Source: an uncultured Pseudomonadota bacterium
GTDB lineage: Bacteria; Pseudomonadota; Gammaproteobacteria; Steroidobacterales; Steroidobacteraceae
DNA: 38,738 nt
Direction: 5' to 3'
Assembly (NCBI GenBank): GCA_903927005.1
Contig: CAIYLH010000110.1
Span: 1 to 38,738, forward strand
A program made the translations under genes and the position numbers. Below the pieces are notes generated by a model. That model was not told the DNA's origin, did not search any database, and saw only the letters and a program-made list of their open reading frames with translations. This document shows positions 14,084 through 31,484 of this stretch, in pieces. Within the stretch, counting starts at the first letter, position 1. Each line of letters begins with the position of its first letter.

Positions 14084-14193
14084 AGGCAGGCTCCTTTTCG
14101 AATTCGCTAAATCGTGACCGGCGGCGGCGCGCTCGCCGCGCCGTGGCCGAGCCGAGCGATCACGCACGAGCGGCGGACAGCGACGCCCCGACG

Positions 14194-14595
14194 CTAGGCG
14201 GTGGCCAGCACGCCGTTGAGCAGATCGATCAGCTCGCGCGTCTCGAACGGCTTGGCAAGCACCGTGTCCGCACCGGCCAGCTTTGCGGCGGCCAGATACG
14301 CCGAGGTGTCGAGCGAGTTCGGGCGGTAGTTGTCGATGCCAATGCTGCCGCCACCGGAAATCGCAATGATGCGCACGGCCGGAAAGTGGCTCTTGATGGT
14401 CTTGATCGCGTCGACGCCGCTGGTCTTGGGCATGATCACGTCGGTGATGACCACCTGCGGCTCACGCTTGAGCATCATGAACAGCGCCTCCTCGGGACCC
14501 GGCGCGGTCTGCACCTCGAAGCCGGCGCGCTCCAGCACCTTCTTGAGCGCACCGCACACGTACGGCTCGTCATCAATCACCATGACCAGCGGCAC
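14194..14595 (-). CDS. Stand-alone CheY-like receiver protein
   Basis: The product is 133 aa, one receiver domain with no output domain. All key residues are present: Asp8-Asp9 (VIDDEP), phospho-acceptor Asp52 (VITDVIMPKTSG), Ser80 (IAISGG) and Lys115 (LAKPF). GTG 14595 is preferred because it begins one base after the TGA of the upstream LuxR-type gene and keeps the receiver intact. ATG 14583 is an alternative but would remove part of the first strand. It probably relays phosphate from the histidine kinase encoded 2 kb downstream on the same strand. About 110 bp separate it from the beta-barrel gene and no terminator is evident there. Confidence 0.85.
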   Translation of the reverse strand: MPLVMVIDDEPYVCGALKKVLERAGFEVQTAPGPEEALFMMLKREPQVVITDVIMPKTSGVDAIKTIKSHFPAVRIIAISGGGSIGIDNYRPNSLDTSAYLAAAKLAGADTVLAKPFETRELIDLLNGVLATA

Positions 14596-14596
14596 G

Positions 14597-15448: not shown

Positions 15449-16019
15449 CTTCCGGACCCCGACTAAGCAATGCGCAGGCTACCGGCGTGCGACGGGCCCA
15501 GCTGTCCTAATAGGAATGGCAATCATTAGCGACAAATAGGCAAAAGCACTATGTCATCTAACCGCGGTTTTTTCCTAGAGGTAGGTACGGTATTTTTCTT
15601 GAGGGGCACCCGGTAGAAAGCCGCCATTCAGCGCGCGACCGCACGGCGCGTGCCAACTTAGGAACCCAACAACTCACTGTTTTAAAAGATTTTTTTAAAT
15701 CCCCTCGGCACTGCTCCGGCCGCGCCGCACGACCGGAGCGGCACCCGCAGCGCTGCCATCGAGCGCACCAAAACAGTGCATTTGCAGAATATGTGAACTG
15801 ATTCACCTCCGCGCGCTTCAGCCCAAAGCTCGTGGTCGAGGATCATTCCCCGAGCTGCCGCAACGCCATCGCGGCACTTAAAGCCCGGACACGAAAAAGC
15901 CGGGCAACCCTTGCGGCTTGCCCGGCCTTAAAACTCCGTCCTGCCGCAGGCGCGTGTCCCCTGACGGCGCGCCTGAGGCCGGGTCGGTCGGACCTGAAGG
16001 TCCGCCCGACCCGCCTGGC
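15449..16019. other. Intergenic region between LuxR-type regulator and giant gene
   Basis: These 571 bases hold no convincing gene. They contain the terminator of the giant gene near 15.9 kb, an AT-rich stretch (15680-15700, TTTTAAAAGATTTTTTTAAAT), and, at 15583-15605, the bases AGGTACGGT and TTGAGGG that recur upstream of the multicopper oxidase operon. The promoter of the regulator gene (reading left) must lie here, but I could not assign -35 and -10 boxes with confidence. Confidence 0.6.
15894..15926 (-). terminator. Rho-independent terminator of the cupredoxin operon
   Basis: Read on the minus strand, GCCGGGCAA pairs perfectly with TTGCCCGGC across a 10-base loop and is followed at once by TTTTT. 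It lies about 95 bases after the giant gene's stop codon, in the right orientation to end the three-gene transcript. Confidence 0.9.
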
Positions 16020-19000
16020 TCAGGTTCCGGTCAGGTTAAGCCTCGCCGCGTAGGTCGTGCCGCCCGCTGTACCCGAGATGCTCAGCACCGCCGGCGATGA
16101 ACTCGTCGGCGAAGACGGCGTGAACGTGACGCGGATGCTGCACGTGCCACCGACCGCGACCGCCGACGCCGGGTTGCAAGTACCCACCGTGGCGCCACTT
16201 GTCACAACCGCCCAAGTGCCGTTGCCACTGGTCTTGGCAACGCTACCGAAGTCGCTCGGCGTCCAGGCTGCGGCCGTGTTGTTGGTGAGGTCCACCAACC
16301 GCGACCGGATCGTGCTGAAGCTCAGGTTGCCCGTTCCCAGGCTGACCGCCGCCGCCGTGCCCGTGCCGGTGATGCCGCTGTTACCCAGCGTGCTCGCATC
16401 CCCAGCCGCCGAAGTCACCGTTACCGTGCCGGTGCGGGTAGCCGCCGCGGTCGGCGTGAACGTCACCACGAACGTGCAACTCGCGCTGGCCGCCAGCACC
16501 GTGCCCGCCGGGCAGCTGTTTCTGCTAACGGCGTAGTCGGTGCCCGTCAACACCACGCCCGGGTTACCGACCGTCAACGAGCCGTTGCCCGCATTGGTGT
16601 AGGTAAACGTCGCGCTGGTGGCGACCCCGATCGCGTGACTGCCGAAGCTCAGCGCGTTGTAGCCGCTGATGGCACAGCCCAGCACACCGCAGGTCTCCGC
16701 CGGCGAACTGGTCAGCACGCCCGGCGCCTTGCCAGTACCGGTCAGGTTGCCGTTGGCTCCCGAGCCGATGCCCATCGGCAGGGTCACCGTACCGACACCG
16801 GGCACGTCGATCGAGACGTTACCGTTGCGCGTCCCGCTCGCGGTCGGCACGAAGTTGACGACGAACGTGCAGGACGCACCCGCCGCCACCGACAAGCCGT
16901 TGGTGCAGTTATTGCTGGCAAGCTGGTAATCGCCCAGCAGCGTGATCACACCCACCGTGACCGGGCCGCCCGAGCCTGCCGGGTTGGTCAGTGTGAACGT
17001 CGCGCCCGTGCTCATGCCGATCACCGTCGTGGCGTAGCTGTACGGCAGGTAGTAACCGAAGGCCGTCGGCTGACCAGGTACCGACAGCACCGGCGGCGTG
17101 GAGATAACGTTCAGCGAGACCGCATTGGACTCGCCCGACGGCGTCGTGATCGTCACGTTATGCGCGCCGCCCGTCGCGGTGCTCCATGCCGTGCAGTGCG
17201 CGGTCGCCGAGGTCGGCGAGACGACCACCAGGGTGTCGCAGTACACCGCAGCTTCAGTCGCACCGGACGATGCCACCTTGACTGTGATGCCCGTCGCACC
17301 GGTCAGCCAGGTACCGGTCAGCGTCGCCGCTACCGTGTTCGGCGACGCCAACGTCGCGCCCTTGATCAAGCCCACCGGGTTGATCGCGGTCAGCGTCGGC
17401 GGCGGCACCACCACGTTCACCGTGGCGCTGGCCGTGTTCGACAGGCTGTTGCCGTAACCGGCCGGCATCAGCACGGTCACGGTGTTGACCCTGTTGCCGT
17501 TGGTGGCCGCGTTAGTCACGGTCGCGTTGATCACGAACGTCACCGAGCCGCCCACCGGCAGACCGACCGCACCACCGCTCGCAGCGGTGATGTTGCCCGT
17601 GCCGCTGGCGGAGGCGCAGCTCGCCCCGCCGCTGGCCGCACAGGTCCAGGTGCCCGTGATGCCGGCCGGCAGGGTGTCGATGATCTTGCCGCCAACCAGG
17701 TTGATGGCGCCGCTGTTGGTCGCGGAGATCGTGTACGTGAACACGTTGCCCGGGTTCGCGCTCGACACGCTCGCAGTCTTAGTCAGCGCGATCGTCACCG
17801 GGATCGGCGGCAGCTCCATCGCACCGATGTCGAAGCTCGAGCCCTGCGGACGCGCCAGACCGAAGAAGTCATGGCTGGTGACGCTGCCGGCGTTGGCACC
17901 GGCGTCGATGGCCTCGGAGCCGAGCATGATCGTGTAGGCACCGCCGGCCGCCGCGACCGCCGCACTGGCGACCGTCGGCTCCGCTGACACCGCGCCATTA
18001 CCCGCCACCGGACGACTCAGGCTCAACGGACCGTAGGTCATGTTGATCCAGTTGTTGCCCTCGTCGACCGTCGCGCTGGCCTTGATGCCGTTGAACACGA
18101 ACACCGGGGCGACGCCGAAGGTCTCCGACTGACCGGCCGGGGTGAAGTAGCCCAGGCACATGCCCTGGTTGTTCGCACCCTGGTTGGTCGAGCACTGCTC
18201 CGGCGGAATACGCGCGCCGTTGCAGTACTGGCCCTGGACCGGCGTCGAAGCCGGCACCAGGCTTGGCGAACCGGACACCGCCGTCGTGTTCAACAGGTTG
18301 ACGTTGTCGCTGAAGATCGAGTTCTTCGCGGTCAGCGCGATACCGGCCGAACTGCTGGTGTCAGTGGAATTCGGCGTGAGCCCGCCACCGCTGAACACCA
18401 CATCCGGCGCGGTCGTATAGCCGCTACCGGCGTTGGTCACCGTCACGCCGGTCACGAGGCCCGCATTGCTGCGGATTGCGGTCGCGGTCGCACCGCTGCC
18501 GCCGCCGCCGACGAGGGTCACGGTCGGCGTCGCGATATAGCCTGCGCCCGGGTTCCAGACCGAGATCGACCTCACCGTGCCGGCGCCGGCAACGCTGAAC
18601 GACACCGTCGGCGCACTGGTGTAGTTGGTGCCGCGGCCGCTACCGCTGCCGAGCGTCACGGCCGTCACCACGCCGTTGACCAGCGTCGCGGTCGCAGTGG
18701 CGCCAGTGCCACCGCCGCCCGAGATGGTCACGGTCGGCACCGCGGTGTAACCCGCGCCGCCGTTGAGGACCGTGATCGAGCTCAGCCGATGCGGGATGGT
18801 GGGGCTGACAGTCGCAGCCGCCGTCGCCGCCTGTGTGAACGTGCCACCCAGCACCGCGGTAGCCGCCGCCTCCAGCGCGTAGCCGCCCGCCACGGTCGGG
18901 ATGTCGAAGTACAGGTTGTGACCATTGGCGTTGGGCAGGCCGTCCATGCGCACGCCCACGTCCCAGTACAACTGCTGCGCAGCGCCATTCACCTGCGGCA

Positions 19001-22000
19001 GCGAGGCCTGGTCGACGCACTGACCGGTAAAGGTCTGCTTCACCAGCGGCAGCAGCGCCACGATGTTCTGGTGCGAGTACAGGCCCTGGCCGTTCGGCGT
19101 CGGCGTGCCAGTCACCGCATTGCCGTTGCTGTCGACAATCTCGACATGGAACGCGCGGTTCTGCCAGAACAGGTCATTGACCACGCTCGGCAGGCCGATC
19201 AGCAGGCAGCGCCCATTGGTGCGCGAGGCGAGCGTGTCGGCCGCGTTGCCGTAGCCGTAGCCGGCCGGGCAGACGATGCTGGTGTTGTTCGCCCAGCCAC
19301 CCGTCTCGTTGTCGAAGTACCGGCCCATCCCCGCCATCATGTTCGGCGTGTTCTGCATGGTCACAAGACCGGCAGGCTGCGGGATGTGCGGCCCATTGGT
19401 CAGCATGCAGTTGGGGTTCTGCGGCTGCGTCGGATCCGCAGTCGGCAGGCATCCCGGCGGCGGTGAGGACGCCATGATCGCGCCGAGGGTCTTGAACAGC
19501 ACGCCGGCCGAGGCCGTCGTGTCGTTCGAGGCCACGGTGTTGTTCACGAACTGTATCTTGAACGCGTCCTGCAAGGACACGCCACCGCCGTCCCAGCCGG
19601 CGACGTTGTTGACGATGATGTTGTTCGTGACCGTGACGCCGTACCACTGGTCCGGAGTGCGCGGGAACACCGACACTTCCTCGCCGTTGATCTGGCGCAG
19701 GCGCAGGCCGCCGCCGCTACCGTCCTCGGCACTGTTGCCGAGGATCAGGTTGGCATCGATCACCAGGTTAGGACCTGTGCCCTCGCCCATGCCAGGCGGG
19801 CAATCGATGTCGGAGGTGGTACCGCACTCCACGCCGCTGGCCAGCGTGCGATCGTGCTGCGCGCCCATGATCATGATGCCGCCGCCGTCGACCGGCAGGG
19901 TCGGGTTGTTGGCCTGGTTGAACAGCACGTAGTTGTTGTTGATCTTGGAGTTGAAGCTGACGCCAATGTGCGCCACGCCACCACCATCGCTCGAGGTCAG
20001 GTTGGCCGCGATCCAGTTGTGGTCCAGCTGGTAGAAGTCCGACCCTGCGCTGATCGTGACGCCACCGGCACCGGCGGGCGAGCCGGAGAACAGCGCATCG
20101 CCGATCGAGGCGTTGTCGATGATCTGGTTGTGGTGGATGTGCACGTAGGTGTTCAGCTGCAACGGAATCGCGCCGTTCTCCTGCACCGTGATCCCAGCCG
20201 GGATCGGCGGGCAAAACGGCAGCGGGCTCGGCCGGTTGGGGTCGTTCGCGGCGAAGCAAGTCGCGCCATCGAGCATGAACCCGGGCGGCGCCTCGCCGCT
20301 GCCGAGGTTGATGCCGCCGCCGAGCGTGCCGGCGTTGGCCGAGATGCGCGTGTTGGCGATCTGCAGGTAGTGGTTCCAGCCATGCAGGTAGATGCCACCA
20401 CCACCCTGCGAGCTGTTCATGACGCTCACGCCATCAATGCTCGACGGGTTGCACAGGAAGTTGCCGGTGCCGTAGTCAGCCGTGGTCGCGCTCTTGCTGG
20501 CCGTGCTGCAGTCGGACGTCCCGTTCACGTAACGGCTGCCGTCTGCAAAGCCACCTGCACCTGCGATCTGGCCCCACAGGTCGGCGCTGCCGCGCGGCAC
20601 GCCGGCCTGGTTGACGCCGCGGCCGACGACCGTGACGCCTGCGCCTTCGTAGGCGCCCATCAGCGAGGGCTCCTGCAGCACCTGCGCGAGGTTGCCGTTG
20701 CTCGACGCATCCCAGCCGATGAAGCCCTCGAACGGAATGCGGTCGGCACGGAAGTACATCTCGGCCGGGCAGCTGTACTCACCGGAGGTGTCGTACTGCG
20801 CCACGTTGGTCATCGGCGCGCCCTGGATGGTCAGGCCGAACAGACAGCTGATCCGGCGACGCCAGGCGTCCATCTTGCCGGCCGGCTGGGCATCGGCGTT
20901 GATCGTGACCGCACCGGCACCGACGCCCTGCAGGCGCACCGGCTTCCACATGATCACGTTCTCGCGATAGGCACCCGCCTCAAGAATGAGCAGGTCGCCA
21001 GGGGTCGCGTTGTCGATCGCCGTCTGCAGCGGGTTGGGATAGAACTCACCCCACTTGTTGCTGCTCGGGCTTGCGGTGGTGACGATCGTCGGCGCCTTGC
21101 CGCCGATCGTGACGGTGATGCCGTCGATCGACTGCTTGCCGTTGCCCGCGGTGACGACCACTTCGCCGCAGACAGCGGGCGTTGTGACGTTGCGCTGCGC
21201 GATCGGGCAGGCCGCCATGCCGGACGGCATGCTGACGTTGATCGTGCCGTCATCCCAGCTGTTGATGGTCGCGGCCAGGCCGCCGACCGTGACGCCGGAG
21301 ACCGCCGCACAACCCGTACCGACGCTGCTGCAGCGAGCACCGAAGCCGTAGTGACGGGTGACCGTCTTCTGGTTGTAGGGCGCCGCACTTGCCGAGGGGC
21401 CAGCGAACTGCGGGTTCTGCACGACGCGGTCACCGAACGACTTGAGCACCAGCGGCGCAGTCGCCGTCAGCGCACCCAGCGTCGCCGAGGCCACAGTGCC
21501 CGAGCCGCCGCCGCCGTTGAACGTCACCGACGGCGCAGAGGTGTACCCACTGCCGCTGCTGGTCAGGGTCAGCGCGCTGACGCCCAGCGAGGCGGTTGCG
21601 GTTGCCGCGACCGTGCCGCCACTGAAGCCGACGGTCGGGGCACTGGTGTAGCCCGCGCCTGCGTTGCCGACCGAGACCGACGCGACGCCGAGCGTCGCGC
21701 TGGCCACAGCGACGGTCGTGCGGTTACCGCCAAAGGTGATGGCCGGCGCGCTGGTGTAGCCACAACCCCGGTTGGTCATGTTGACCGCCGTGATCCTGCC
21801 CGAGGTCAGCGTGACCGTGCCGGTGGCGCGCGTGCCGCCATTAGGGGGACTGGCGAAGCTGACGGTGGCGCAGCCGTTGCCGTTTTGGACGTAGCCGGCG
21901 CCCTGGTTGGAGATCGCAACCGAGCTCACGCCCAGGCAGGCCGTGGCCGTCGCAAGGGTGCTGTAGCCGCCGCCGCTGAGCGTGACGGTCGGGACAGTCG

Positions 22001-25000
22001 TATAGGTGCCGCCGCTGCCGACCGCGATCGCCGCGACCTTCATCGTGGCGCTCGCCACCGCGCCGCTACCGCCGCCGCCACTGAAGCCCACCGACGGCGT
22101 GCTGCTGTAACCCGAGCCGCTCGTGGTCACTGTCACCGCGCTAAGGCCAGCCGAGGCCGAAGACCAGGGACCGATGTTGCCCTGGAAGTCGGCACGCTTG
22201 ATGACCGGCGTCGCATCCGGGTACTCGGCGTCCGGCAGGTTGTAGTGATCCGCGAACGCCTGCACCGGCGTGACGGGCGTGTCCATGTAGGCGGTGAAGC
22301 CCGGCATGAACGGCGTTTCGTAGCAGAAGTTGCTGTACGCCGGGCTATAGGCCGGGTCCGTGATCATCTGCCCATGGGTCGGCGAGTCCGGATCGAGGTC
22401 CTTGATCGGGCCTGGATCGTTCATGCACGCCACCGACATCTGCGGCGCGTAGCCGGTCGGGTTCGGCGGGTTCACTTCCCAGCTGGAGAAGTACATGCCG
22501 TTGTAGGCACCCCACTGGTCAGCGTACACGCGGGTGACTTCGTCACCGACGAAGTTACGCATGCGGATCGGCAGGTTCGGCACGCCGAACTTCTCACCGA
22601 ACTGCGGCGAGAACGGATCGAACTCCGAGGCCATGTCGTTGGTCATGCCGCCGACGAAGTGGCCGGCGACGTGGTTCTTGGTGAACATGTAGAACTTGGC
22701 GTTGAGCGACTCCTGGTCGTGCAACGTCACTTCCTTGCGATCGCACAGCGGCCGGCTCGCGCCTGCGAACGGCGCGGTCTGCCCGGCGCTCGGGAACAGG
22801 CTCATCGTGTCCGGCACGATGCGCGTCTGGCCGACGCACGGCCACAACTGGTCGGTGCTGGCGAAGTCCTGACGCGTGTGTTGCACACCCAGGTTGGTGG
22901 TCGCGTTGACCGCATTGTTGGCGTTGTAGAAGGCGTTCATCGCCGCCTGGTCGGGCATGATGAAGATGTTGCCCAGACCCGCGAACTGCTGCGTGACCGG
23001 GGCCACGTAGATGTCGCCGACGAGGATGTTCTTGTCCTCTTCCTTGACCACTTCATAGCCCTGCGGGGTCACCACCTCGACCACGTACTTGCCTGGCGGC
23101 AGCACCGGGATCGGATCGCTAGGATCGACCGCGTTCGCCGTGCAGATCGAGCAGTTGGTGCCAGCTACCGGCGTATTCACGCCATTGAGCTTGCCCTGGC
23201 CCGACGGACGGCCCGAGGCCGGGTTGCGGTCGACGATGCTGGGGAACTGGTAGCGGCCGTCATACGGGGCCGGTTCAATCTGGTTCAACATCGACCAGCC
23301 GTCAAAGCACTTGAACTGCGCGTTGTAGGCGAGCTTGTGCTTGGCGCCGCCGATCGTGCCGTCGCCGTTGTAGGTCGTCGTGGCGTTGCCGGCCGCGTCG
23401 TAGTCCAGCCACATCTTGCTACCGGCGAGGGTCGCGAAGAAGCCGCTGGTCGGGTCCTGGCCCGGGCAGTTCATGTTCGGGATGTAGCTGCCGTCACCCA
23501 TCTGCAGCAGCGTGCCGGTGCCCGTGCCGTCGGTGCGGAAGCCCTGTGACCACTTGTCGAAGCTGCTGGTGACGGTCGTGTCGACCAGCGTCAGGGTCTT
23601 CGAGCCGTCGGCGGCCAGATCTTCCTTGTACAGGTTGACCTGGACGTTGGCGACGCCCGGCTCCCAGTTCAGCTGCACCAGCAGCGTCGGGTCGTCGAAC
23701 GGACGGGTGGAGGCGTACACCACCATGCCCTGGATGCCGCCGGTCTCGCCGGCCTTGAACGGCTTCATGCCGAAGTCGATGAAGCTGTGCTGGCCCAACA
23801 GACCCTGCCAGCCTTCGGTGTGCCACGGCGGGTCGATGCGACCGCTGGACAGGCCCGTGGTCGGCGCAGGCGCGGCCGTGCCGCCGAGGTAGGCGCTGCC
23901 GGTGAACGCGTCGCCCGCATCGGTGCAGTCGGCGCCGAGGCAGTAGACCGCGCCCGGGACGCGCAGCGCGACGGGCAGCGAGTTGCTCTCGTTGGTCGCC
24001 GCGAGGTGCGCGGCGGTGTTGGAGCACTTGGCCGCGTCGGCCGTGCAGTCGTCCGCACCACCGGCGTCATAGACCACGTGCTGGCTGGTCTGCTTGTAGC
24101 GGGTCGTGTCCGGCTCGACGATCAGCCAGTTCATGAACGGGAACACTTCGTTGTAGGTGGCGTAGCCACTCAGGTCGGTGCCGTTCCGGAAGCCAATGCT
24201 GCCGTCGCGGTAGCGGACCGTGATCGGCAGCAGCGGAATGCCCTGCTCCAGATCCTTGCCATCCCCATCGCGGTTCGGGATGCCGTCGTTGTTCAGGTCG
24301 ATGTAGGTGCGCGTGTACAGGTTCGTGCGCCACTGGGTGGCGGTCACGGTGACCGGGGTGACGCCATTGATGTTCACGGCCGTGACCAGGCCGTCGAGCA
24401 TGATGTCGTTCCACTGGTCGAACACGGCGAGCTTGAAGACGCCGTCCGGCAGGCCAGTGAAGCTGAACTTGCCGTCAGAGTCGCACTTGGTGAACGCGAA
24501 GTCCTGCTCGTCCGGAACGCCCAGCGCGACGTAGCAGTTGGAGAACGCGAACGCGTCGTAGGAGCCCGTGTCGAAGGTGCGCTCGTCCGGCGTACGGCTC
24601 ATGTGGTTGCCGTGCACCTGACCGGTGATCGAGGAGTGGCAGTTCAAGCCGCCACCCTTCGGCGCCGGATCGCACAGACCCGTGCCTGCGCTGTTCACGC
24701 GCCGGTCGTTGATGATCTTCGGATTGGCGAAGCCCATCTGGATGTGGAAGCCGCCAGGACCGAACTCCTGGAAGTACGACGGCTCACCTGGGCGCACGAA
24801 CGCCTCGTGCGGCTTGCCGCCGTCGAGGGTATTGGTCTGCAGCCATTCCTCACCACGCGCGATGCGATCGGCGGAGGGGGTGGCGGTGACCTCGTACAGG
24901 CCCGGATACAGGTTCTCGATCACGGCTTGGCCGGCCAGCGGCGAGCGTGTCTTGCCGTCCGACTCGTAAGTCGGGCAGGTCACGACCTTGGCCGCGTTGT

Positions 25001-28000
25001 TGTCGGCGTTGGAGCCGATCGGGCAGGCATTGAGCCCGGTCATCGGGTCCAGGGTGCCAGCCAACGAGTTGGTCACCGGCATGTTGAACATGTCGTAGGT
25101 GATCTGGCCGGTGTTGTCACCCAGCCCGCCCGCCTGATCGAGCAGCTCGATCTGGAAGCCACCCAGGCCCGCCTCGTTCGGCGCGACGATGTCTACACCG
25201 CCGCCGGCGTCGTTCTCACCGTTGAGCGGGTAGTCGTCCTCGTACACCAGCACCGCGATGCGCGCGGTCGGCAGCGGCGTCTCGGCCAGCGAGATCGTGA
25301 TCGCAGGCGCGATCGGGTTGTGGCGCGGATCGAACGCAGGGGCGATCTGGCCGCCACCCATGTTGTGACCACAGCTGCCGCTACCGGGCGCGAAGTCGGC
25401 CTCGGTCGGGCAGTCGAGCGCCGGATCGAACTTGCGCGTCCTGCCGTTGGAGTCGGTCACCGGGCCGCCGACGCCGGCCACGCTCGGGTTGATGCCATCG
25501 CCAGGCAGCACGGAGATGAAGTAGTGCTTGTTCGGGTCGAGCGCGACATCGGCCGGGCTGAGCTCCTGGCGCTGGGTCGCAGTGGTGCGGCAGACGCCGT
25601 TGCCGACGTCACAGACCGCCGCCTCGCCGAGCAGCGTCTGGCCGCTCTCGCAGGAGACCGAGCCCATGCAGCCGGTGGCCACGACCGGCATGCCGGCCGA
25701 ATGGAAGTTGTAGCCGAGCGCCTCGACCGGCACGGCCGGGCAGTCGCGACCGTAGGAGTCCTTCGGACGCACCGCGCCGCCGGTGTTGACCTGGCACTTC
25801 GGGTCGATCCAGAACGTGCGGTCTTCCTCGATGATCCAGCGGTAGTCGTTGGCCAGTGTCCAGCCGTGCTTCTGGTCCACCAGCGTGACCGCAAGACCCG
25901 AGCCCGTCGGGAACGTCAGCGATACCGTCGCAGGCGCGAGCGCGGGCGTGCCCTGCGAGTTCTTGACGTTGTAGGTGAACGAGTAGCTGCCTGCAGCCGG
26001 CGCGTACGCGACGAACGAGCCGTCGGCGTTGACCGTGACGGTGAGGCCTCCGATCGCATTGATAGTGCTTGGGTCAACGCTCAGCGTCCGGCCGGCCGGA
26101 TCGACGTCGTTGAGCAGCACGCCTGGCGGGCTGATCAGCAGCTGCTTGGCGTTGTTGGCAGCGAAGCTGTCGTCATGCAGCACCGGCGGGCCGCCGAGCG
26201 TGCAGCCCGGGTTGGCGCTGCTGGAAGCATCGCACTGGGTGATGGTCGCCGCCGGGGCCGGCAGGTTGTTGACGGTGTAGCTGAACGTGCCACCGCAAGC
26301 GGCAGGCGCCGGCGGCGGGGTGTAGCTGAACGTGCCGTTGGTCTGCAGCGACAGCGTGCCGGCCAGCGTGGCGGCGGTCAGGCTGACGCCGTTTGCGCCA
26401 CTGGTACCGCCGAGCAGGCCGCGCTGCGGGTCGGCGATGTCAAGCGGACGGCCGCTGACGCAGTAGTAGGTCTTGGCGACCACACCGCTGAGCTGGGTGT
26501 CGGAGCCACCGGCACCGGCGACGCCAACGCCTGCGGTCGCGCCACCGGCCACAGCGATATACGCCTGCATGCCGCCGTCGCGCTGGTTGTTGGTCGACAG
26601 GCTCAGCTGGCGATCGAAGATCGGGTAGGTCGCACGCGCGTAGCTGCCGGCGGCCTGAGTGGGCTTGACGATCACGTCATAGCTCTTGCCGGCGGCGAGG
26701 AACACCTCGTTCTGCAGGCGCGGCACGCCCGGCAGCGGATTGCCATCCTCGGCGATCAGCGTCATCGGCAGGCCGACAACCGACGGGATGTGCATGCGCA
26801 GGCCGGCGTTGACCAGTCGCAGCGCGACGTTGCCGCTGGTGGCCGTGGCCGACGCCAGGATCTGCGCGGTCGACGCGCCGATGCTGGTGCGATCGAACGA
26901 CACGCCGTTGACCAGGTAGTAGCGCGGGCTGAAGTTAACCGCCGGCGGGTAGCAGTTGTGCACTGACGGGTTGCCGCAGGCGCCGACCTGGCCGCTCCAC
27001 ACGGCGGTTTCGCTGAAGCCTGCGGTGGCAACCGCAGTGGCGACCGCGGCGTTCTGCACCGGGTCGATTTCGCTGAGCACGACCGGCACGCTCGCGTCGA
27101 ACGCCGAGGCGGCCGTGGTCGGCGTTTTGACGTCGGTCGGGAAGGTCTGCGCGGAGCCCGTCACGACCAGCACGCCGTACAGGCCCATCGGACCTTGAAT
27201 GGAAGGATGCGTACCCGACTCGATCAGGTAGGTGCCCGGACGCAGATTGCTCCAGGTCAGCGCGGTGGGCGTGGCCGCCCCTGCCAGCACTTCGGTGCCG
27301 AAGGACTGCACGCGCGGGCCCTGCGCCGGCGCGATCGCCGTCGGGCTGCCGGCGGTCTGGTATGCCGCCCAGCTCAGGGACGCCGCAGCACCGCTGCCGC
27401 CGCCGCCACTGAAGCTGACCGTCGGTGCCTCGGTGTAGCCACTGCCCAAGCTGGTCAGCGTGATGCCGGTCACAACGCCGCCGCTGACCGTCGCCTTGGC
27501 CGTGGCGCCAGAGCCACCGCCGACCCCCGGGGTCAGGATGACAGTCGGTGCTGAGGTGTAGCCCGAGCCGCCGGCGTCCACCTTGATCGAGCTTGCGCTG
27601 GAATCGATGCCGCCGATGCCAGGCCAGGTCGTGCCCTGCGGCGCGTGGGTGGGGCTCAGCGTGGTGGTGTGATGGCCAATGCCACCGACCAGTTCCAGAC
27701 CGCCGCCCAGCTGGCCGACGATCGTCAGCGAGGTCGGCACCAGGGTGGTGCCGGCCGCGAACGACAGGCTGTTGGTCAGGTTGATCGTCAGGCTCGTCCC
27801 GACGCCGCTGTACGGCACGGTGATGACGACCGGCGACCAGTTGCCACCGGCGTTCGGGTTGGCCGCGGCGCAGGTCGCGACCGTGTCGCCACCCAGGCAC
27901 TGGTAGCCCCACATCGGCACGCTCTGCCCGTCGGGCAGGGTCGTGCTGGTGGGAGCGGCGTTGAGGTTGACTGTAGCGCCCAGGACACCCTGGCTGGCTA

Positions 28001-28064
28001 GCAGGAGAGCAGCAGCCGCGAGGCGCGCGAAGCGCTTGACGGGCTGGGAGGTGTAACGATGCAT
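16020..28064 (-). CDS. Giant secreted protein: two cupredoxin domains, repeats, beta-helix and Ig-like modules
   Basis: The product is about 4014 aa. ATG 28064 has AGGAG 7 bases upstream, and residues 1-30 are a signal peptide. Residues about 31-305 and 325-505 are multicopper-oxidase-type cupredoxin domains (WGYQCLGG, GPMGLYGVLVV, LVNAGLRMHIPS) with the usual His/Cys motifs missing; a GSGYTSAPTV repeat tract (156-232) sits inside the first. Then come cadherin/VCBS-like segments (565-720), SdrD or Cna-B-like segments (935-1070 and later), a second repeat tract (1969-2209), an IPT-like region, a right-handed beta-helix (about 2335-2860) and a third repeat tract (3092-3229). The C-terminus has a choice-of-anchor Q ending (EAIDAGANA ... 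DIGAMEL), a DUF11 domain, an IPT-like domain and three choice-of-anchor D/HYDIN-like domains. No sorting tail is evident. It follows the two oxidase genes by 17 bases, so it may scaffold them at the cell surface. Confidence 0.85.
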   Translation of the reverse strand: MHRYTSQPVKRFARLAAAALLLASQGVLGATVNLNAAPTSTTLPDGQSVPMWGYQCLGGDTVATCAAANPNAGGNWSPVVITVPYSGVGTSLTINLTNSLSFAAGTTLVPTSLTIVGQLGGGLELVGGIGHHTTTLSPTHAPQGTTWPGIGGIDSSASSIKVDAGGSGYTSAPTVILTPGVGGGSGATAKATVSGGVVTGITLTSLGSGYTEAPTVSFSGGGGSGAAASLSWAAYQTAGSPTAIAPAQGPRVQSFGTEVLAGAATPTALTWSNLRPGTYLIESGTHPSIQGPMGLYGVLVVTGSAQTFPTDVKTPTTAASAFDASVPVVLSEIDPVQNAAVATAVATAGFSETAVWSGQVGACGNPSVHNCYPPAVNFSPRYYLVNGVSFDRTSIGASTAQILASATATSGNVALRLVNAGLRMHIPSVVGLPMTLIAEDGNPLPGVPRLQNEVFLAAGKSYDVIVKPTQAAGSYARATYPIFDRQLSLSTNNQRDGGMQAYIAVAGGATAGVGVAGAGGSDTQLSGVVAKTYYCVSGRPLDIADPQRGLLGGTSGANGVSLTAATLAGTLSLQTNGTFSYTPPPAPAACGGTFSYTVNNLPAPAATITQCDASSSANPGCTLGGPPVLHDDSFAANNAKQLLISPPGVLLNDVDPAGRTLSVDPSTINAIGGLTVTVNADGSFVAYAPAAGSYSFTYNVKNSQGTPALAPATVSLTFPTGSGLAVTLVDQKHGWTLANDYRWIIEEDRTFWIDPKCQVNTGGAVRPKDSYGRDCPAVPVEALGYNFHSAGMPVVATGCMGSVSCESGQTLLGEAAVCDVGNGVCRTTATQRQELSPADVALDPNKHYFISVLPGDGINPSVAGVGGPVTDSNGRTRKFDPALDCPTEADFAPGSGSCGHNMGGGQIAPAFDPRHNPIAPAITISLAETPLPTARIAVLVYEDDYPLNGENDAGGGVDIVAPNEAGLGGFQIELLDQAGGLGDNTGQITYDMFNMPVTNSLAGTLDPMTGLNACPIGSNADNNAAKVVTCPTYESDGKTRSPLAGQAVIENLYPGLYEVTATPSADRIARGEEWLQTNTLDGGKPHEAFVRPGEPSYFQEFGPGGFHIQMGFANPKIINDRRVNSAGTGLCDPAPKGGGLNCHSSITGQVHGNHMSRTPDERTFDTGSYDAFAFSNCYVALGVPDEQDFAFTKCDSDGKFSFTGLPDGVFKLAVFDQWNDIMLDGLVTAVNINGVTPVTVTATQWRTNLYTRTYIDLNNDGIPNRDGDGKDLEQGIPLLPITVRYRDGSIGFRNGTDLSGYATYNEVFPFMNWLIVEPDTTRYKQTSQHVVYDAGGADDCTADAAKCSNTAAHLAATNESNSLPVALRVPGAVYCLGADCTDAGDAFTGSAYLGGTAAPAPTTGLSSGRIDPPWHTEGWQGLLGQHSFIDFGMKPFKAGETGGIQGMVVYASTRPFDDPTLLVQLNWEPGVANVQVNLYKEDLAADGSKTLTLVDTTVTSSFDKWSQGFRTDGTGTGTLLQMGDGSYIPNMNCPGQDPTSGFFATLAGSKMWLDYDAAGNATTTYNGDGTIGGAKHKLAYNAQFKCFDGWSMLNQIEPAPYDGRYQFPSIVDRNPASGRPSGQGKLNGVNTPVAGTNCSICTANAVDPSDPIPVLPPGKYVVEVVTPQGYEVVKEEDKNILVGDIYVAPVTQQFAGLGNIFIMPDQAAMNAFYNANNAVNATTNLGVQHTRQDFASTDQLWPCVGQTRIVPDTMSLFPSAGQTAPFAGASRPLCDRKEVTLHDQESLNAKFYMFTKNHVAGHFVGGMTNDMASEFDPFSPQFGEKFGVPNLPIRMRNFVGDEVTRVYADQWGAYNGMYFSSWEVNPPNPTGYAPQMSVACMNDPGPIKDLDPDSPTHGQMITDPAYSPAYSNFCYETPFMPGFTAYMDTPVTPVQAFADHYNLPDAEYPDATPVIKRADFQGNIGPWSSASAGLSAVTVTTSGSGYSSTPSVGFSGGGGSGAVASATMKVAAIAVGSGGTYTTVPTVTLSGGGYSTLATATACLGVSSVAISNQGAGYVQNGNGCATVSFASPPNGGTRATGTVTLTSGRITAVNMTNRGCGYTSAPAITFGGNRTTVAVASATLGVASVSVGNAGAGYTSAPTVGFSGGTVAATATASLGVSALTLTSSGSGYTSAPSVTFNGGGGSGTVASATLGALTATAPLVLKSFGDRVVQNPQFAGPSASAAPYNQKTVTRHYGFGARCSSVGTGCAAVSGVTVGGLAATINSWDDGTINVSMPSGMAACPIAQRNVTTPAVCGEVVVTAGNGKQSIDGITVTIGGKAPTIVTTASPSSNKWGEFYPNPLQTAIDNATPGDLLILEAGAYRENVIMWKPVRLQGVGAGAVTINADAQPAGKMDAWRRRISCLFGLTIQGAPMTNVAQYDTSGEYSCPAEMYFRADRIPFEGFIGWDASSNGNLAQVLQEPSLMGAYEGAGVTVVGRGVNQAGVPRGSADLWGQIAGAGGFADGSRYVNGTSDCSTASKSATTADYGTGNFLCNPSSIDGVSVMNSSQGGGGIYLHGWNHYLQIANTRISANAGTLGGGINLGSGEAPPGFMLDGATCFAANDPNRPSPLPFCPPIPAGITVQENGAIPLQLNTYVHIHHNQIIDNASIGDALFSGSPAGAGGVTISAGSDFYQLDHNWIAANLTSSDGGGVAHIGVSFNSKINNNYVLFNQANNPTLPVDGGGIMIMGAQHDRTLASGVECGTTSDIDCPPGMGEGTGPNLVIDANLILGNSAEDGSGGGLRLRQINGEEVSVFPRTPDQWYGVTVTNNIIVNNVAGWDGGGVSLQDAFKIQFVNNTVASNDTTASAGVLFKTLGAIMASSPPPGCLPTADPTQPQNPNCMLTNGPHIPQPAGLVTMQNTPNMMAGMGRYFDNETGGWANNTSIVCPAGYGYGNAADTLASRTNGRCLLIGLPSVVNDLFWQNRAFHVEIVDSNGNAVTGTPTPNGQGLYSHQNIVALLPLVKQTFTGQCVDQASLPQVNGAAQQLYWDVGVRMDGLPNANGHNLYFDIPTVAGGYALEAAATAVLGGTFTQAATAAATVSPTIPHRLSSITVLNGGAGYTAVPTVTISGGGGTGATATATLVNGVVTAVTLGSGSGRGTNYTSAPTVSFSVAGAGTVRSISVWNPGAGYIATPTVTLVGGGGSGATATAIRSNAGLVTGVTVTNAGSGYTTAPDVVFSGGGLTPNSTDTSSSAGIALTAKNSIFSDNVNLLNTTAVSGSPSLVPASTPVQGQYCNGARIPPEQCSTNQGANNQGMCLGYFTPAGQSETFGVAPVFVFNGIKASATVDEGNNWINMTYGPLSLSRPVAGNGAVSAEPTVASAAVAAAGGAYTIMLGSEAIDAGANAGSVTSHDFFGLARPQGSSFDIGAMELPPIPVTIALTKTASVSSANPGNVFTYTISATNSGAINLVGGKIIDTLPAGITGTWTCAASGGASCASASGTGNITAASGGAVGLPVGGSVTFVINATVTNAATNGNRVNTVTVLMPAGYGNSLSNTASATVNVVVPPPTLTAINPVGLIKGATLASPNTVAATLTGTWLTGATGITVKVASSGATEAAVYCDTLVVVSPTSATAHCTAWSTATGGAHNVTITTPSGESNAVSLNVISTPPVLSVPGQPTAFGYYLPYSYATTVIGMSTGATFTLTNPAGSGGPVTVGVITLLGDYQLASNNCTNGLSVAAGASCTFVVNFVPTASGTRNGNVSIDVPGVGTVTLPMGIGSGANGNLTGTGKAPGVLTSSPAETCGVLGCAISGYNALSFGSHAIGVATSATFTYTNAGNGSLTVGNPGVVLTGTDYAVSRNSCPAGTVLAASASCTFVVTFTPTAAATRTGTVTVTSAAGDASTLGNSGITGTGTAAAVSLGTGNLSFSTIRSRLVDLTNNTAAAWTPSDFGSVAKTSGNGTWAVVTSGATVGTCNPASAVAVGGTCSIRVTFTPSSPTSSSPAVLSISGTAGGTTYAARLNLTGT
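18380..18790 (-). repeat. GxGYTxxPTV repeat tract C in the giant protein
   Basis: Four or so copies of a 25-40 residue motif, for example NGGAGYTAVPTVTISGGGG and NAGSGYTTAPDVVFSGGG. Each has Gly-Tyr-Thr, a Pro and a Gly-rich turn. The tract lies after the beta-helix. Confidence 0.75.
21440..22160 (-). repeat. GxGYTxxPTV repeat tract B in the giant protein
   Basis: About seven copies of the same motif (such as SGSGYSSTPSVGFSGGGG, NAGAGYTSAPTVGFSGG and SSGSGYTSAPSVTFNGGGG), linked by Ala/Thr-rich strands such as VASATLGV. The regular strand-turn pattern suggests a beta-solenoid or stacked beta-hairpins. Confidence 0.8.
27372..27598 (-). repeat. GxGYTxxPTV repeat tract A, inserted in a cupredoxin domain
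   Basis: Two copies (AGGSGYTSAPTVILTPGVGG and LGSGYTEAPTVSFSGGGGSG) lie between the early strands and the final GTYLIESGTHPS strand of the first cupredoxin domain of the giant protein. They therefore interrupt that fold. Confidence 0.75.
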
Positions 28065-28081
28065 CTCTATTCTCCTGAAGA

Positions 28082-29692
28082 TCAATTCGTTTCGTCGATC
28101 GCGGAATCGCGCGGGTCGACGAGCATCATCATCATCATGCCGCCGGGGAAAACGTTGTCCGTGGTGATCTCGCGCTCATTGTGCGAGTGCCACATGTAGG
28201 CGTAGCCACCGGCGGAGTTCGCGACGGTACCGGCCGGCGAGATCGGCGTGACGCCGACCGAACGCGCGGTCGCATCGCCACCGAGATAGGGACTGCCGCC
28301 ATACCAGGCGCCCTGCATCAGGATGTTCGGATCCGGCAGCGTCATCGGACCGCCGGCGGCCACCTGGCCGGTCGGGTTCTTCTCGAGCGCCTTGTTGTGA
28401 TCGCCGCACCACTCGTAGAAGTTGGCGGCGCTCGGGTCGGCTGTGTAATAGCCGTTCGCGTCCGGGATGCAGACGCTCGTGTCACCGGCATAGCCGTGAC
28501 CGAACACGTCCCAGTTCAGGCCCTTGCCGGTCCAGTAGAAGATGCCGTCCATCGTCATGCCGGGCGTGGTGGTGGTGGTGAACAGCAACGGGCCCGCAGG
28601 CACGCTGACGCCGGCGACGGCCGGGCTCAGCAGCAGGTTGCCGTCACGCGCCAGCACGCGCACGTGGTTGGCGTGTTCGTGGAACGGATGCTGCCAGCGG
28701 CCGTGGCCGACGATGCGCACCAGCGTCAACTCGCCCGGGTGCATGTGCGGGTTGCCGTTGTACGGCTGGCTCGGATACTGCGGCGCGTAGTTGGGATCCA
28801 TGTCATCGGGCATCGAGCGGCCGTTGACCAGGAAGTAACCGGGCGTGTACGGCTCGGTCGCAACCACCAGGCAACCGCCCGGGTTGGTGCAGCCGGTGCC
28901 GACCGGCTTCGCCAGATCGGCCAGCACCTGATCCTCGGCCTGCAGATGCACGTCGTCGTCCATCTCCGAGAACTGGAACAGGTACTCGCGGTCGTAGCAG
29001 CTGGCCGGGTGATCGTAGGCGGCGTGCGCGAGGCGGAAGTCGCCCTCGCCCGACTGCGCCCTGGCGAGCACGTTCTGCGCAGCAAGACCTGCGTTGCAGG
29101 CCGCAGGCACAGCGTTCGGCAGCACGATCAGTGCGCCGTACAGGCCCATCTCGATCTGCAGGTCGGCCTGCGTGCCGCTGTAATAGGAGTGCGTGCCGGG
29201 CGTGCTCGCGATGAAGGTGTAGCTGACCGTGTTGCAGCCGGCGTTCAACGCGAGGTTGCAGGCAGCGGCATTGCGCGCCTCCTGCGTCAGCACGCCGGGC
29301 GCGCCGCCCACCACCGCAGTGGTGACAAAGCCCGGAAACAGCATCGAGGTGCTACCCGCCGCGGCCGGCAGGTTGTTGGTCAGGTTGATCGTGACCGTAT
29401 CGCCCTCGGTGACGATCAGCGTCGGACCGGGCAGCTGCGCCGCAGGACAGAAACCATTGGAGATGGCCGCTGGCGCGAAGCCCGTCGGCGCCCCCAGGCA
29501 GCCGTAGCCCCAGGTGTAGACCGACTTGCCGTTGGGCTGCGAGGCGCGCGTCGCCGCGGCCTGCAGGTTGAACACAGGTCCGGTGATGCCGGGCGCCGCG
29601 GCGAGCGCCGGCAGCGCGAGCAGCGAGCCGAGCGCAATAACTACGCAGCGCAAGCGCTGGACGAGCAGAGACTGAGTATTGATTGGGTGCAT
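28082..29692 (-). CDS. Multicopper oxidase-type protein with two His-X-His pairs but no type 1 Cys
   Basis: The product is 536 aa. ATG 29692 has AGGAG 7 bases upstream, overlapping the previous gene's stop. The signal peptide ends near ALAAA (about residue 33). The first cupredoxin domain (about 35-195) starts like the giant protein (NGKSVYTWGYGCLG against DGQSVPMWGYQCLG) and ends EMGLYGALIVLP with GTHSYYSG in place of a copper motif. The second has HPFHEHANH (His335, 338, 340, 343) and, near the C-terminus, MWHSHNERE (His502, 504) followed by GGMMMMM. The Cys that normally lies between the two final His (HCH) is Ser503, so there should be no type 1 copper here. The missing elements are found in the upstream partner. 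Likely periplasmic or secreted; substrate unknown. Confidence 0.88.
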   Translation of the reverse strand: MHPINTQSLLVQRLRCVVIALGSLLALPALAAAPGITGPVFNLQAAATRASQPNGKSVYTWGYGCLGAPTGFAPAAISNGFCPAAQLPGPTLIVTEGDTVTINLTNNLPAAAGSTSMLFPGFVTTAVVGGAPGVLTQEARNAAACNLALNAGCNTVSYTFIASTPGTHSYYSGTQADLQIEMGLYGALIVLPNAVPAACNAGLAAQNVLARAQSGEGDFRLAHAAYDHPASCYDREYLFQFSEMDDDVHLQAEDQVLADLAKPVGTGCTNPGGCLVVATEPYTPGYFLVNGRSMPDDMDPNYAPQYPSQPYNGNPHMHPGELTLVRIVGHGRWQHPFHEHANHVRVLARDGNLLLSPAVAGVSVPAGPLLFTTTTTPGMTMDGIFYWTGKGLNWDVFGHGYAGDTSVCIPDANGYYTADPSAANFYEWCGDHNKALEKNPTGQVAAGGPMTLPDPNILMQGAWYGGSPYLGGDATARSVGVTPISPAGTVANSAGGYAYMWHSHNEREITTDNVFPGGMMMMMLVDPRDSAIDETN

Positions 29693-29702
29693 CGCTGCTC
29701 TC

Positions 29703-31484
29703 CTAGATTCCGCTGCAGATCTTGGTCGACGGATGGACCGAGCCACAGATATTGACCTCGGTCATCTCGCCGCCGAAGTTCTCGGCGTCGTTCGACAAGT
29801 GATCGAGGTTGGGCGTGTACAAGTAGAACTTCTGGCCAGCGGTGAGGCCGGTGGCATCGAGGATCACGTCGATCGACTCGCCGCCGGCGATCGTGATCGA
29901 GTTGGTGAGGTAGGTCAGATCGTTGCCGGCCATGTCGCGCAGCAGGCGCGCGTTGGTACCAACCACCCGCATCGGCACGCCGAGCGAGGCGAGCGTGTGG
30001 TACTCGGTGACGCTGAGGTTCGACAGCCGCAGCAGCGCCTTGCCATTGGCCGGGATGTTGATCACCGACGGCATCGGCTGTGAGGTGTGATTGGTGCCAT
30101 CGGTCGACTGGGTCTGCATCGGACCTGCGACGACCGCACCGACCGCCTTGTGGTTGCACGCCGGCAGCGTGTCACCGTCCACGCAGCTATGACCGCCGAC
30201 GGTGTCGGGGTAGCTGCGGCCATTGAGCAGGAAGTACTTGTCCTTCATGTCGATGAACGACTCGGCATTGAAGGTCATGCCGACGAAGTGGAAGTTCGGG
30301 TCGAAGCCCATCATCTGGATGGGATACTCGACGTCGTAGTAGGTCGAGCCGTCGCCGTCGTTGTAGGCATAGCCGCCGCCCGCCGCGCGCAGCGCGGCGT
30401 TGGCCGCCGGGATCGGCGTGGTGCACAGGATGTCGTTACCGCAACGCTTGCGCAGCGGCTCGAACGCCGTCCAGTCCGCGGAAGTGACAGTGCGCTGCTC
30501 GGTGATCGCCGCGGGCGTGCCGGCTTCCCACTGCACCAGCGCATCGCGCAGCGAGGTGTTGACCGCCACCTTGTTCTGGCGCGGGCGCACATACAGCTGA
30601 CCGACCATGCCCATCTGCAGATGCTCGGGCGGTGCGATGTGGCAATGCCAGAAGTAGGTACCCGCGTCCGGGGCCAGGTAGTAGTAGCTGAAGCTGCCAC
30701 CGACGTTGATCGCGACCGAGGCGTCCGGCACGCCGTCATAGAACGCCGAGGCGTTCGGGTAGCCGTGGAAATGGATCGTATGCTGCTCGAACAGGTCGGG
30801 CCGCATGATCATGCCGACGTTGCTCAGCGTCAGGAACAGCTCGTCGTCCTCGTCGATCGCGATCAGCGGTGCCGGCTGGTTGGCGTTCATCACGCCCACG
30901 TCCATCAACTGGCGCGCGTCGAGGTGGCCATCGAGCAGCGAGCCTTCGTAGCTCCAGCGGACCCGGCCATCATTGAAGTTGTTGGTCGTGCCGGTCGGCT
31001 CGGTGGCGCCGGCGTTGCCGGCGGTCTTCGCCTTGTAGATGCCGGTGGCGGTGCGTACCAGATCGCCAATGGCGTAGGTCGCGCCGGAGGTCCAGGGGTC
31101 GAGGCTGGTGTCTTCCGCCAGGCCGATCGCACCGTTGAAAGCGAAGCTCGCGTCAGGCATGCCGACCAGCGTGCTCGGCGAGCCGGAGACCGGCGGCATG
31201 GGCAGGTTGAACGCCTGGTTGGTCTGGGTGCCGGCCTGGCCGTTGTAAATGTCGGTCAGGCCCGACAGCGGGCCGAAGCCGAACAGGTAGGTGATCGAGC
31301 CGTCACCCATGGTCGCGAAGCCGTCGCCGCCGCTGACCTGCTGGCACTTAATGTGCGCACCGCCGGGATGCATCGTGGTGCCGTCCGGGCACTGCACGCG
31401 AAAGCTCTGCGCCTGGGCGGCTGATGCCACCAGCAGCAATGCCAGTGCCGGCAATAGGCGAACGAGGGGCGATGTGCTCTTCAT
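29703..31484 (-). CDS. Multicopper oxidase-type protein with type 1 copper site and two His-X-His pairs
   Basis: The product is 593 aa. ATG 31484 has GGAGG 7 bases upstream, and the signal peptide is cut after SAAQA (residue 25). Copper motifs are all in the first cupredoxin domain: HTIHFHG (His235, 238, 240) and WHCHIAPPEHLQMGM (His280, Cys281, His282, His288, Met291/293). This is a full type 1 site plus two His pairs of a trinuclear cluster. The second domain (about 440-590) lacks copper ligands (YLYTPNLDH). Residues about 131-181 (WTSGATYAIGDLVRTATGIY ... VRWSYEG) look like a carbohydrate-binding module of the CBM5/12 kind set into the first domain. It is the first gene of an operon with the second oxidase-type gene (10-base gap) and the giant gene. 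It probably oxidises an extracytoplasmic substrate with O2; which one cannot be read from sequence. Confidence 0.9.
   Translation of the reverse strand: MKSTSPLVRLLPALALLLVASAAQAQSFRVQCPDGTTMHPGGAHIKCQQVSGGDGFATMGDGSITYLFGFGPLSGLTDIYNGQAGTQTNQAFNLPMPPVSGSPSTLVGMPDASFAFNGAIGLAEDTSLDPWTSGATYAIGDLVRTATGIYKAKTAGNAGATEPTGTTNNFNDGRVRWSYEGSLLDGHLDARQLMDVGVMNANQPAPLIAIDEDDELFLTLSNVGMIMRPDLFEQHTIHFHGYPNASAFYDGVPDASVAINVGGSFSYYYLAPDAGTYFWHCHIAPPEHLQMGMVGQLYVRPRQNKVAVNTSLRDALVQWEAGTPAAITEQRTVTSADWTAFEPLRKRCGNDILCTTPIPAANAALRAAGGGYAYNDGDGSTYYDVEYPIQMMGFDPNFHFVGMTFNAESFIDMKDKYFLLNGRSYPDTVGGHSCVDGDTLPACNHKAVGAVVAGPMQTQSTDGTNHTSQPMPSVINIPANGKALLRLSNLSVTEYHTLASLGVPMRVVGTNARLLRDMAGNDLTYLTNSITIAGGESIDVILDATGLTAGQKFYLYTPNLDHLSNDAENFGGEMTEVNICGSVHPSTKICSGI

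Follow-up and report, generated by a model that had tools for sequence, protein, structure and literature searches.

Three tandem two-domain multicopper oxidase paralogues with a trinuclear copper site apparently divided between two chains

Homotrimeric two-domain multicopper oxidases (MCOs) with type-1 (T1) copper in domain 1 constitute the type C class, and in two-domain MCO trimers the trinuclear copper site is located at the subunit interface. Each chain of the type C enzymes, represented by the structures 3g5w (Nitrosomonas europaea blue copper oxidase) and 2zwn (a metagenome laccase), comprises two cupredoxin domains and four His-X-His (HxH) pairs, giving three identical sites per trimer. 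This study concerns three adjacent genes, here named P1, P2 and P3, in a window of 38,738 nucleotides (CAIYLH010000110.1 of GCA_903927005.1) from an uncultured Pseudomonadota bacterium (Steroidobacteraceae, Gammaproteobacteria). Their products also have two cupredoxin domains per chain, and domain 1 of P1 (P1-D1) and domain 2 of P2 (P2-D2) align with the D1 and D2 motifs of the type C enzymes; however, three diverged chains here appear to hold a single site. With a probability of about 0.8, we propose that P1, P2 and P3 form a 1:1:1 ring that resembles the homotrimeric two-domain MCOs but has a single live site, between P1-D1 and P2-D2, and two dead interfaces.

Six-domain MCOs, such as ceruloplasmin and MnxG/MofA/OmpB, likewise combine six cupredoxins, one trinuclear site and mostly emptied domains, and the bacterial enzymes place this site at the junction of domains 2 and 3 and the T1 copper in domain 2 (PMC3600357). 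These enzymes are single chains, whereas of 80 loci from named genomes (the best 80 of at least 524 stretches encoding a relative, some from one genome), 76 encode P1 and P2 in separate frames and 72 also have a separate P3. P1-P3 are set apart from MofA, MnxG and OmpB here on the basis of published descriptions of the latter. The Mnx complex, MnxE3F3G, is likewise an MCO needing partner chains from one operon, but in contrast to P1-P3 only MnxG is an MCO, MnxE and MnxF being described as lacking known homologues (PMC5622069). In Sideroxydans lithotrophicus ES-1, three tandem MCO genes, predicted to be extracellular and not homologous to known metal oxidoreductases, have been described together with a mofC-like gene (PMC5566968, 2017, accessible portion), where they are presented as three MCOs without discussion of a common active site. 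Judging by this description, the ES-1 tandem genes may be the same cluster or a cousin. No description of an MCO active site common to two chains was found in the literature searched, which excluded subscription papers and preprints and included the accessible portions of PMC3600357, PMC8218464, PMC11412304, PMC6769254, PMC5622069, PMC7315648 and PMC5566968. In addition, no mention of copper oxidases was found in the accessible portion of PMC7074687, and none of copper oxidases, multicopper or cupredoxin proteins, Mn oxidation or laccase in that of PMC7315648.

Copper ligands on the three chains

All three genes are located on the minus strand with intergenic gaps of 10 bases (P1-P2) and 17 bases (P2-P3); the coordinates confirm this layout, which had been reported in a first-pass annotation of the window. 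P1 (31484-29703; 593 amino acids (aa)) and P2 (29692-28082; 536 aa) are exported two-domain MCO paralogues, and P3 (28064-16020; 4014 aa) combines an N-terminal MCO paralogue with a scaffold. Each protein opens with a hydrophobic leader, judged by eye, and that of P1 ends, again by eye, in AQA.

Ligand conservation was assessed in 98 P1, 101 P2 and 83 P3 N-terminal (P3N) homologues, after duplicate loci, exact duplicates and matches below 400 bits (P1, P2) or 120 bits (P3N) had been left out. P1-D1 comprises the T1 copper site together with half of the trinuclear ligands. The motif HTIHFHG (residues 235-241; 30762-30782, minus strand) provides T1 His235 and trinuclear His238/His240 and is retained in 97 of 97 covering rows, while WHCHIAPPEHLQMGM (residues 279-293; 30606-30650, minus strand) provides trinuclear His280/His282 and T1 Cys281/His288/Met293 and is retained in 98 of 98 rows. 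These motifs are as the first-pass annotation had claimed, namely T1 copper plus two HxH pairs, with the correction that they match the first, T1 domain of a two-domain MCO. The T1 ligands H235, C281, H288 and M293 are present in domain 1 of P1 only, not in P2 or P3. The HxH pairs of P1-D2 have been lost, and none of the 98 homologue rows contains HxH in this emptied domain (residue 330 on).

P2 shows the reciprocal pattern, with no copper ligands in domain 1 and the other trinuclear half, devoid of the T1 Cys, in domain 2. HPFHEH (residues 335-340; 28673-28690, minus strand), which contains trinuclear His338/His340 and has His335 at the former T1 position, is conserved in 100 of 100 covering rows. 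WHSH (residues 501-504; 28181-28192, minus strand), with trinuclear His502/His504 and Ser503 replacing the T1 Cys, is conserved in 89 of 89 covering rows, 12 of the 101 rows falling short of this region. The earlier reading of two more HxH pairs without a Cys was thus accurate, the Cys being replaced by serine. Within the emptied domain of P2 (up to residue 250), HxH occurs in one of 101 rows, as one pair, in locus L050. Every P1 and P2 homologue row that covers them thus retains the eight trinuclear histidines unchanged, a conservation that exceeds chance, and the same result was obtained after removal of near-copies (98% or more alike), which left 96 P1, 92 P2 and 82 P3N rows.

The first part of P3 (residues 1-509; 26538-28064, minus strand) consists of a leader and two copper-free cupredoxin domains and is a P2 paralogue. 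The claim that these are two cupredoxin domains lacking copper motifs is borne out by a Pfam Cu-oxidase match (residues 380-504) and by a P2 profile match (E 1.9e-34). A single HxH is found in the cupredoxin part, at residues 423-425, in 4 of 83 rows, and two are found in none; in another nine rows HxH is confined to the scaffold, past residue 520. H140, H286 and H425 are conserved as lone histidines. P1 and P2 therefore carry two HxH pairs each and P3 none: four on one chain were not found, and no examined row of P1 or P2 has the full ligand set.

The three proteins align domain by domain and are paralogues, with profile-alignment E values of 1.9e-34 (P2-P3N), 2.9e-17 (P1-P2) and 1.7e-9 (P1-P3N). 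In these alignments, the HCH position of P1 corresponds to SGT in P2 and P3, and the HPFHEH position of P2 to HIPSVV in P3. Given these aligned losses, both halves of the copper site are retained at one of the three D1/D2 interfaces that a ring would have and are missing at the other two. In the mechanism that we propose, P1, P2 and the P3 N-terminus would be three paralogous two-domain subunits in a 1:1:1 ring, domain 1 of one facing domain 2 of the next, and every interface except one would have lost its copper ligands in both halves after gene duplication. The P1-D1/P2-D2 interface would keep T1 copper and the eight trinuclear histidines, and P2-D1/P3-D2 and P3-D1/P1-D2 would be dead. Electrons would be taken up by the T1 copper of P1 and relayed via Cys281 to the trinuclear cluster between P1 and P2, where O2 would be reduced; the surface scaffold fused to P3 would be carried by the ring. 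The complex, its stoichiometry and the ring order are proposed from homology, conservation and co-occurrence, and the same evidence supports the earlier suggestion that P1 and P2 share one trinuclear site while P3 supplies a third, copper-free pair of domains. The description as a six-domain-like enzyme is refined in that the closest architecture would be a two-domain homotrimer turned heterotrimer, not a cut-up ceruloplasmin or MnxG.

Several residues outside the classic motifs are also conserved: His399 of P1 (98 of 98 rows) and His316/His318, Cys408, Cys429 and His432 of P2, which possibly form a substrate site or an extra metal site. P1 further contains an insert at residues ~125-185, which is present in L002, L004, L005 and L031 of an 18-row alignment and absent from Cupriavidus and Paraburkholderia P1. 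This insert may resemble a carbohydrate-binding module, for which no search match was obtained.

Fold and structural relatives

Two cupredoxin domains per chain were identified for P1 and P2 by AlphaFold2 and Foldseek, and for P3 by profile alignment to P2; P1 and P2 hold extra stretches in addition. Pfam Cu-oxidase_3 was detected at residues 195-303 of P1 and 86-193 of P2, the second domain of both being weak, below or near cut-off. The mature P1 model had a mean predicted local distance difference test (pLDDT) of 79.8 and a predicted TM-score (pTM) of 0.82 (61 rows), and the mature P2 model 82.3 and 0.86 (63 rows). The best or near-best Foldseek matches of both models were two-domain MCOs (3g5w, 2zwn, 3gdc and 7rab), with alignments spanning 357-480 columns (the target chains being 285-318 aa long) and, normalised by target length, TM-scores of 0.58-0.65. 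Among solved structures, the best relatives of the P1 and P2 profiles were also two-domain MCOs, 3g5w and 2zwn first, and a single-sequence search gave 3g5w for P1 and 3gdc for P2. HTIHFHG and HCH..H..M of P1 align at 72.5 bits with the motifs of 3g5w domain 1, and HPFHEHxN of P2 aligns at 18.5 bits with HAIHTHGH of 3g5w domain 2.

Several points weigh against the proposed ring. The alignment of P2 WHSHxER with IHDHVDTH of 3g5w D2 rests on a 1.8-bit stretch, and lYTTNLDH of P1-D2 aligns with the same stretch at only 5.2 bits; from the latter alignment, the HxH pair corresponds to YxT and the last His to H562 of P1. The P2 model has pLDDT below 50 at model residues 405-418, 421-458 and 471-477, including half of WHSH. 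The structural matches, with root-mean-square deviations of 4-15 A, show the fold, not the site, and the profile similarity of P1 and P3N is the weakest of the three (96%, E 1.7e-9). The P1/P2 heteromer itself is deduced from sequence and single-chain models. Finally, copper nitrite reductases score close behind MCOs, or first for P2 (5zl1), and as these are also two-domain trimers, the fold alone does not show an MCO.

This last point raises an alternative, in which P1 alone would be a T1 electron-transfer protein or, with one interface copper, a nitrite-reductase-like enzyme, P2 a separate metal binder, and no trinuclear centre would exist. In its favour, neither chain has the full site, copper nitrite reductases come close in structure, and the P1/P2 heteromer is a prediction. 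A nitrite reductase would, however, need fewer of the eight histidines, which are kept on the sole pair of domains expected to face each other if the chains assemble as a two-domain MCO trimer does, the other halves having lost theirs, and P1 and P2 are inseparable in the genomes searched. We consider this alternative very improbable.

Co-occurrence and a compact two-gene branch

The proposal of a shared P1/P2 site is consistent with the distribution of the genes. Among 60 related genomes, the 12 with a strong match to P1 (E at most 1.9e-75) are also the 12 with a strong match to P2 (E at most 1.4e-105), and among 274 genomes of the class (cut-offs 1e-20 and 1e-10) both proteins are matched in the same 7, the window's own genome being counted among both the 12 and the 7; weaker matches of P1 and P2, to other MCOs, occur in further related genomes. 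The 80 named loci comprise 72 with P1-P2-P3, four more with P1-P2 and four with P1 alone, and in the latter (L052, L053, L097 and L122) no more than 0.4 kb separates P1 from a contig end. In all 76 loci with both, P1 and P2 are adjacent, separate frames, P2 itself being in two frames in L103 and L124. The survey for strict co-occurrence suggested by the first-pass annotation thus did not find P1 and P2 apart in the genomes searched. The hosts, many soil bacteria among them, include Burkholderia, Paraburkholderia, Cupriavidus (among them the metal-resistance model Cupriavidus metallidurans CH34, which has the trio), Collimonas, Pandoraea, Trinickia and Granulicella, metagenome-assembled genomes (MAGs) of Acidobacteriota and Proteobacteria, and a Gallionella MAG. 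Eight plasmid records, the same for all, gave full-length matches to P1, P2 and the cytochrome discussed below. In one annotated Paraburkholderia record, P1, P2 and P3 are all labelled 'hypothetical protein'.

The listed matches of the P1 profile in 398 genomes of the phylum and of the P2 profile in 274 genomes of the class included no fused six-domain relative, and no P1-profile match listed for the 398 genomes lies in an open frame longer than 1,025 aa. A search via the cytochrome likewise gave no fused relatives in the 398 genomes, three of which contain the cytochrome, or in plasmids.

The remainder of P3 (residues 510-4014; 16020-26537, minus strand) is a surface-type scaffold with Big_9/cadherin-like, SdrD_B-like, beta-helix, DUF11, and choice-of-anchor D and Q domains. 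Following the Cu-oxidase match, Pfam gave Big_9, SdrD_B-like, DUF11, ASH and a weak beta-helix, and NCBIfam gave choice-of-anchor D and Q. In five distant loci (L190-L194), the scaffold is encoded separately upstream of P1 (1683-1972 aa, one copy being truncated at a contig end; P3 C-terminal profile match only), followed by P1 (frames of 411-466 aa), P2 and a short P3 with the cupredoxin pair (572-707 aa, or 388 aa at the contig end in L193). The conserved core is therefore three two-domain proteins, and the scaffold is separable from the trio. The idea that the giant protein serves as scaffold for the enzyme is refined accordingly. P3 has 4014 aa in the window compared with about 2700-2830 in many relatives; by eye, it holds many copies of a YTSAPTVSFSGGGGSGA-like repeat, some within the first cupredoxin domain (e.g., residues 160-240).

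The P2 profile also matched pairs of adjacent frames of 318-400 aa. We inspected 23 loci picked from short-frame P2-profile matches, not at random, and 11 of them hold such a pair, here named A and B (L196:6775-8840, L197, L198, L230-L234, L236, L238 and L239). In A, domain 1 carries HxH, HCH and a T1 motif, and domain 2 is free of HxH; in B, domain 2 carries two HxH and domain 1 lacks them. The exceptions are the second pair of B in L230, L233 and L234, which is HCH, and a few A and B with an extra HxH elsewhere. B has an RR-type leader resembling those of twin-arginine translocation (Tat) substrates in 10 of 11 pairs (not L232), and A lacks a leader in 10 of 11, that of L232 being real. As a rough control, a crude hydropathy cut of 1.4, which scans up to ~140 residues, was passed by all 11 B and all 33 complete two-domain MCO controls but by 2 of 11 A (L232 and L239), the passing stretch of L239 A being at residue 59, in the first domain. 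This is the pattern of Tat hitchhiking, from which A should leave the cell bound to B. No third such frame was found in the 11 loci in a search with A and B.

Among the other loci, six (L240, L241, L243, L244, L245 and L249) contain a complete two-domain MCO and a weakly similar frame without ligand pairs. This second frame is 320-350 aa long, lies within ~1-2 kb of the MCO gene, has one isolated HxH in L243 and L245, and possibly represents an early stage of heteromer formation. L242 has a complete MCO alone, L235 two A-type frames and L247 A alone on the examined stretch, and L237, L246 and L248 show other patterns.

In a tree of 92 rows (13 of 99 P1, 14 of 102 P2 and 10 of 84 P3N aligned rows, with complete MCOs as outgroup and other MCO classes unsampled), each group is set off from the rest by a single branch. 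The A frames cluster with P1 (96/81), B groups with P2 and P3N (97/85), and P2 and P3N are sisters (100/98). With this outgroup, the tree reads as one split followed by a B duplication. The support of its key splits is moderate (96/81 and 97/85), with long branches and ten rows of deviating composition; shared ligand losses could help these splits, and the unusual composition of P3N could mislead. We give roughly even odds to the broader reading that this whole branch consists of obligately heteromeric MCOs with the site split between two chains. The compact ancestor would be A:B, probably as an A:B:B ring, with A, devoid of an export signal, exported only when bound to the Tat-carrying B. A duplication of B with ligand loss in one copy would have led to P1:P2:P3, the third subunit then being fused to the scaffold and joined by a type II secretion system (T2SS) and cytochrome.

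These data also bear on a different stoichiometry, in which P1 and P2 would share the site but P3 would be an anchor or scaffold only, the core being, for example, P1:P2:P2 (an arrangement that the compact A/B pairs may have) or a larger oligomer. In its favour, paired ligands are absent from the P3 cupredoxin part in 79 of 83 rows, each of the remaining four having no more than a single HxH, and no third frame was found in the compact loci; moreover, the sister relation of P2 and P3 implies that a B-type subunit can fill the third place. In contrast, the short P3 with two cupredoxin domains that follows P2 in the five loci with a separate scaffold argues that the P3 cupredoxins matter, and the trio is present in 72 of 80 loci. 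We regard this arrangement as unlikely and favour the 1:1:1 ring of P1, P2 and P3.

Neighbouring genes and significance

In C. metallidurans CH34, the trio is preceded by GspF, GspE and secretin genes and followed by two LolA-like genes, a 541-aa one-CxxCH protein and a PpiC isomerase. One LolA-like gene has a sub-threshold Pfam match and the other is similar to the first. The 541-aa cytochrome has one CxxCH and a borderline Pfam Cytochrom_C match only, and one record labels its homologue 'ABC transporter substrate-binding protein'. Across 110 sources, which include overlapping stretches of one genome, secretin was matched in 22, GspE in 20, the cytochrome in 18 and the LolA-like gene in 16 (E 1e-5); some secretin matches (28-29%, opposite strand) surely belong to other systems, and PpiC was seen only in L048. 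The cytochrome lies beyond P3 in all nine related genomes with a long enough stretch (G001, G006, G008, G009, G010, G011, G016, G270 and G296), the stretch being too short to judge in G003 and G012. In the distant genome G563, cytochrome and T2SS genes adjoin the trio. G682, the other cytochrome genome, has no P1, P2 or P3 match in 33 kb, and a 588-aa frame with an HCH-type motif lies nearby.

PMC5566968 and PMC8218464 describe MofA/OmpB clusters with a mofC-like gene, combining cytochrome c and periplasmic-binding domains, and a mofB isomerase. The published description of MofC suggests a likeness to the cytochrome found here, and it is on this cytochrome/isomerase parallel, which is not proof, that we propose metal oxidation. 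The presence of a T2SS and a MofC-like cytochrome near many relatives suggests a surface metal (or other) oxidase. In this model, the ring would be assembled in the periplasm and then probably moved outward by a dedicated T2SS, served by the MofC-like cytochrome. The chances of export via a T2SS appear evenly balanced, and an extracellular metal such as Mn(II) or Fe(II) is a tentative substrate, somewhat less probable than the route. A GspE match of 500 aa or more was found in only 12 of the 80 named loci (10 kb or less upstream examined), and in the window's genome the T2SS, two LolA-like and two cytochrome genes are on another contig, C70, away from the trio. In this region (C70:160693-178481; L222, L223), the genes occur without an MCO trio between them, unlike in G008 of the same genus.

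In the window's genome, the trio is accompanied by a TonB receptor, a PHB regulator and two-component genes. The latter, a histidine kinase and two response-regulator frames (11035-15448, minus strand), are downstream of the trio and are possible regulators. The first-pass annotation had reported a shared terminator; P3 is followed by no consensus terminator but by a GC-rich inverted repeat that lacks a T run (15976-16012, minus strand) and was not called as a terminator.

The predicted heterotrimeric two-domain MCO with a two-chain active site is a variation on the known two-domain MCO theme, and the underlying observation is real and well conserved. MCO classes have been defined by the domains on one chain (two, three or six); if the reading is true, the split-chain set shows that one chain is not required. 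It would provide a natural split site, in which a three-site homotrimer became a one-site heterotrimer without gene fusion, and a step between two-domain laccases and ceruloplasmin-like proteins. A screen demanding four motifs on one protein would miss P1-P3, which explains why these genes go unrecognised. Given that the trio is found in many Burkholderiales and Acidobacteriota, including C. metallidurans CH34, surface oxidation of Mn, Fe or another substrate would be directly testable there.

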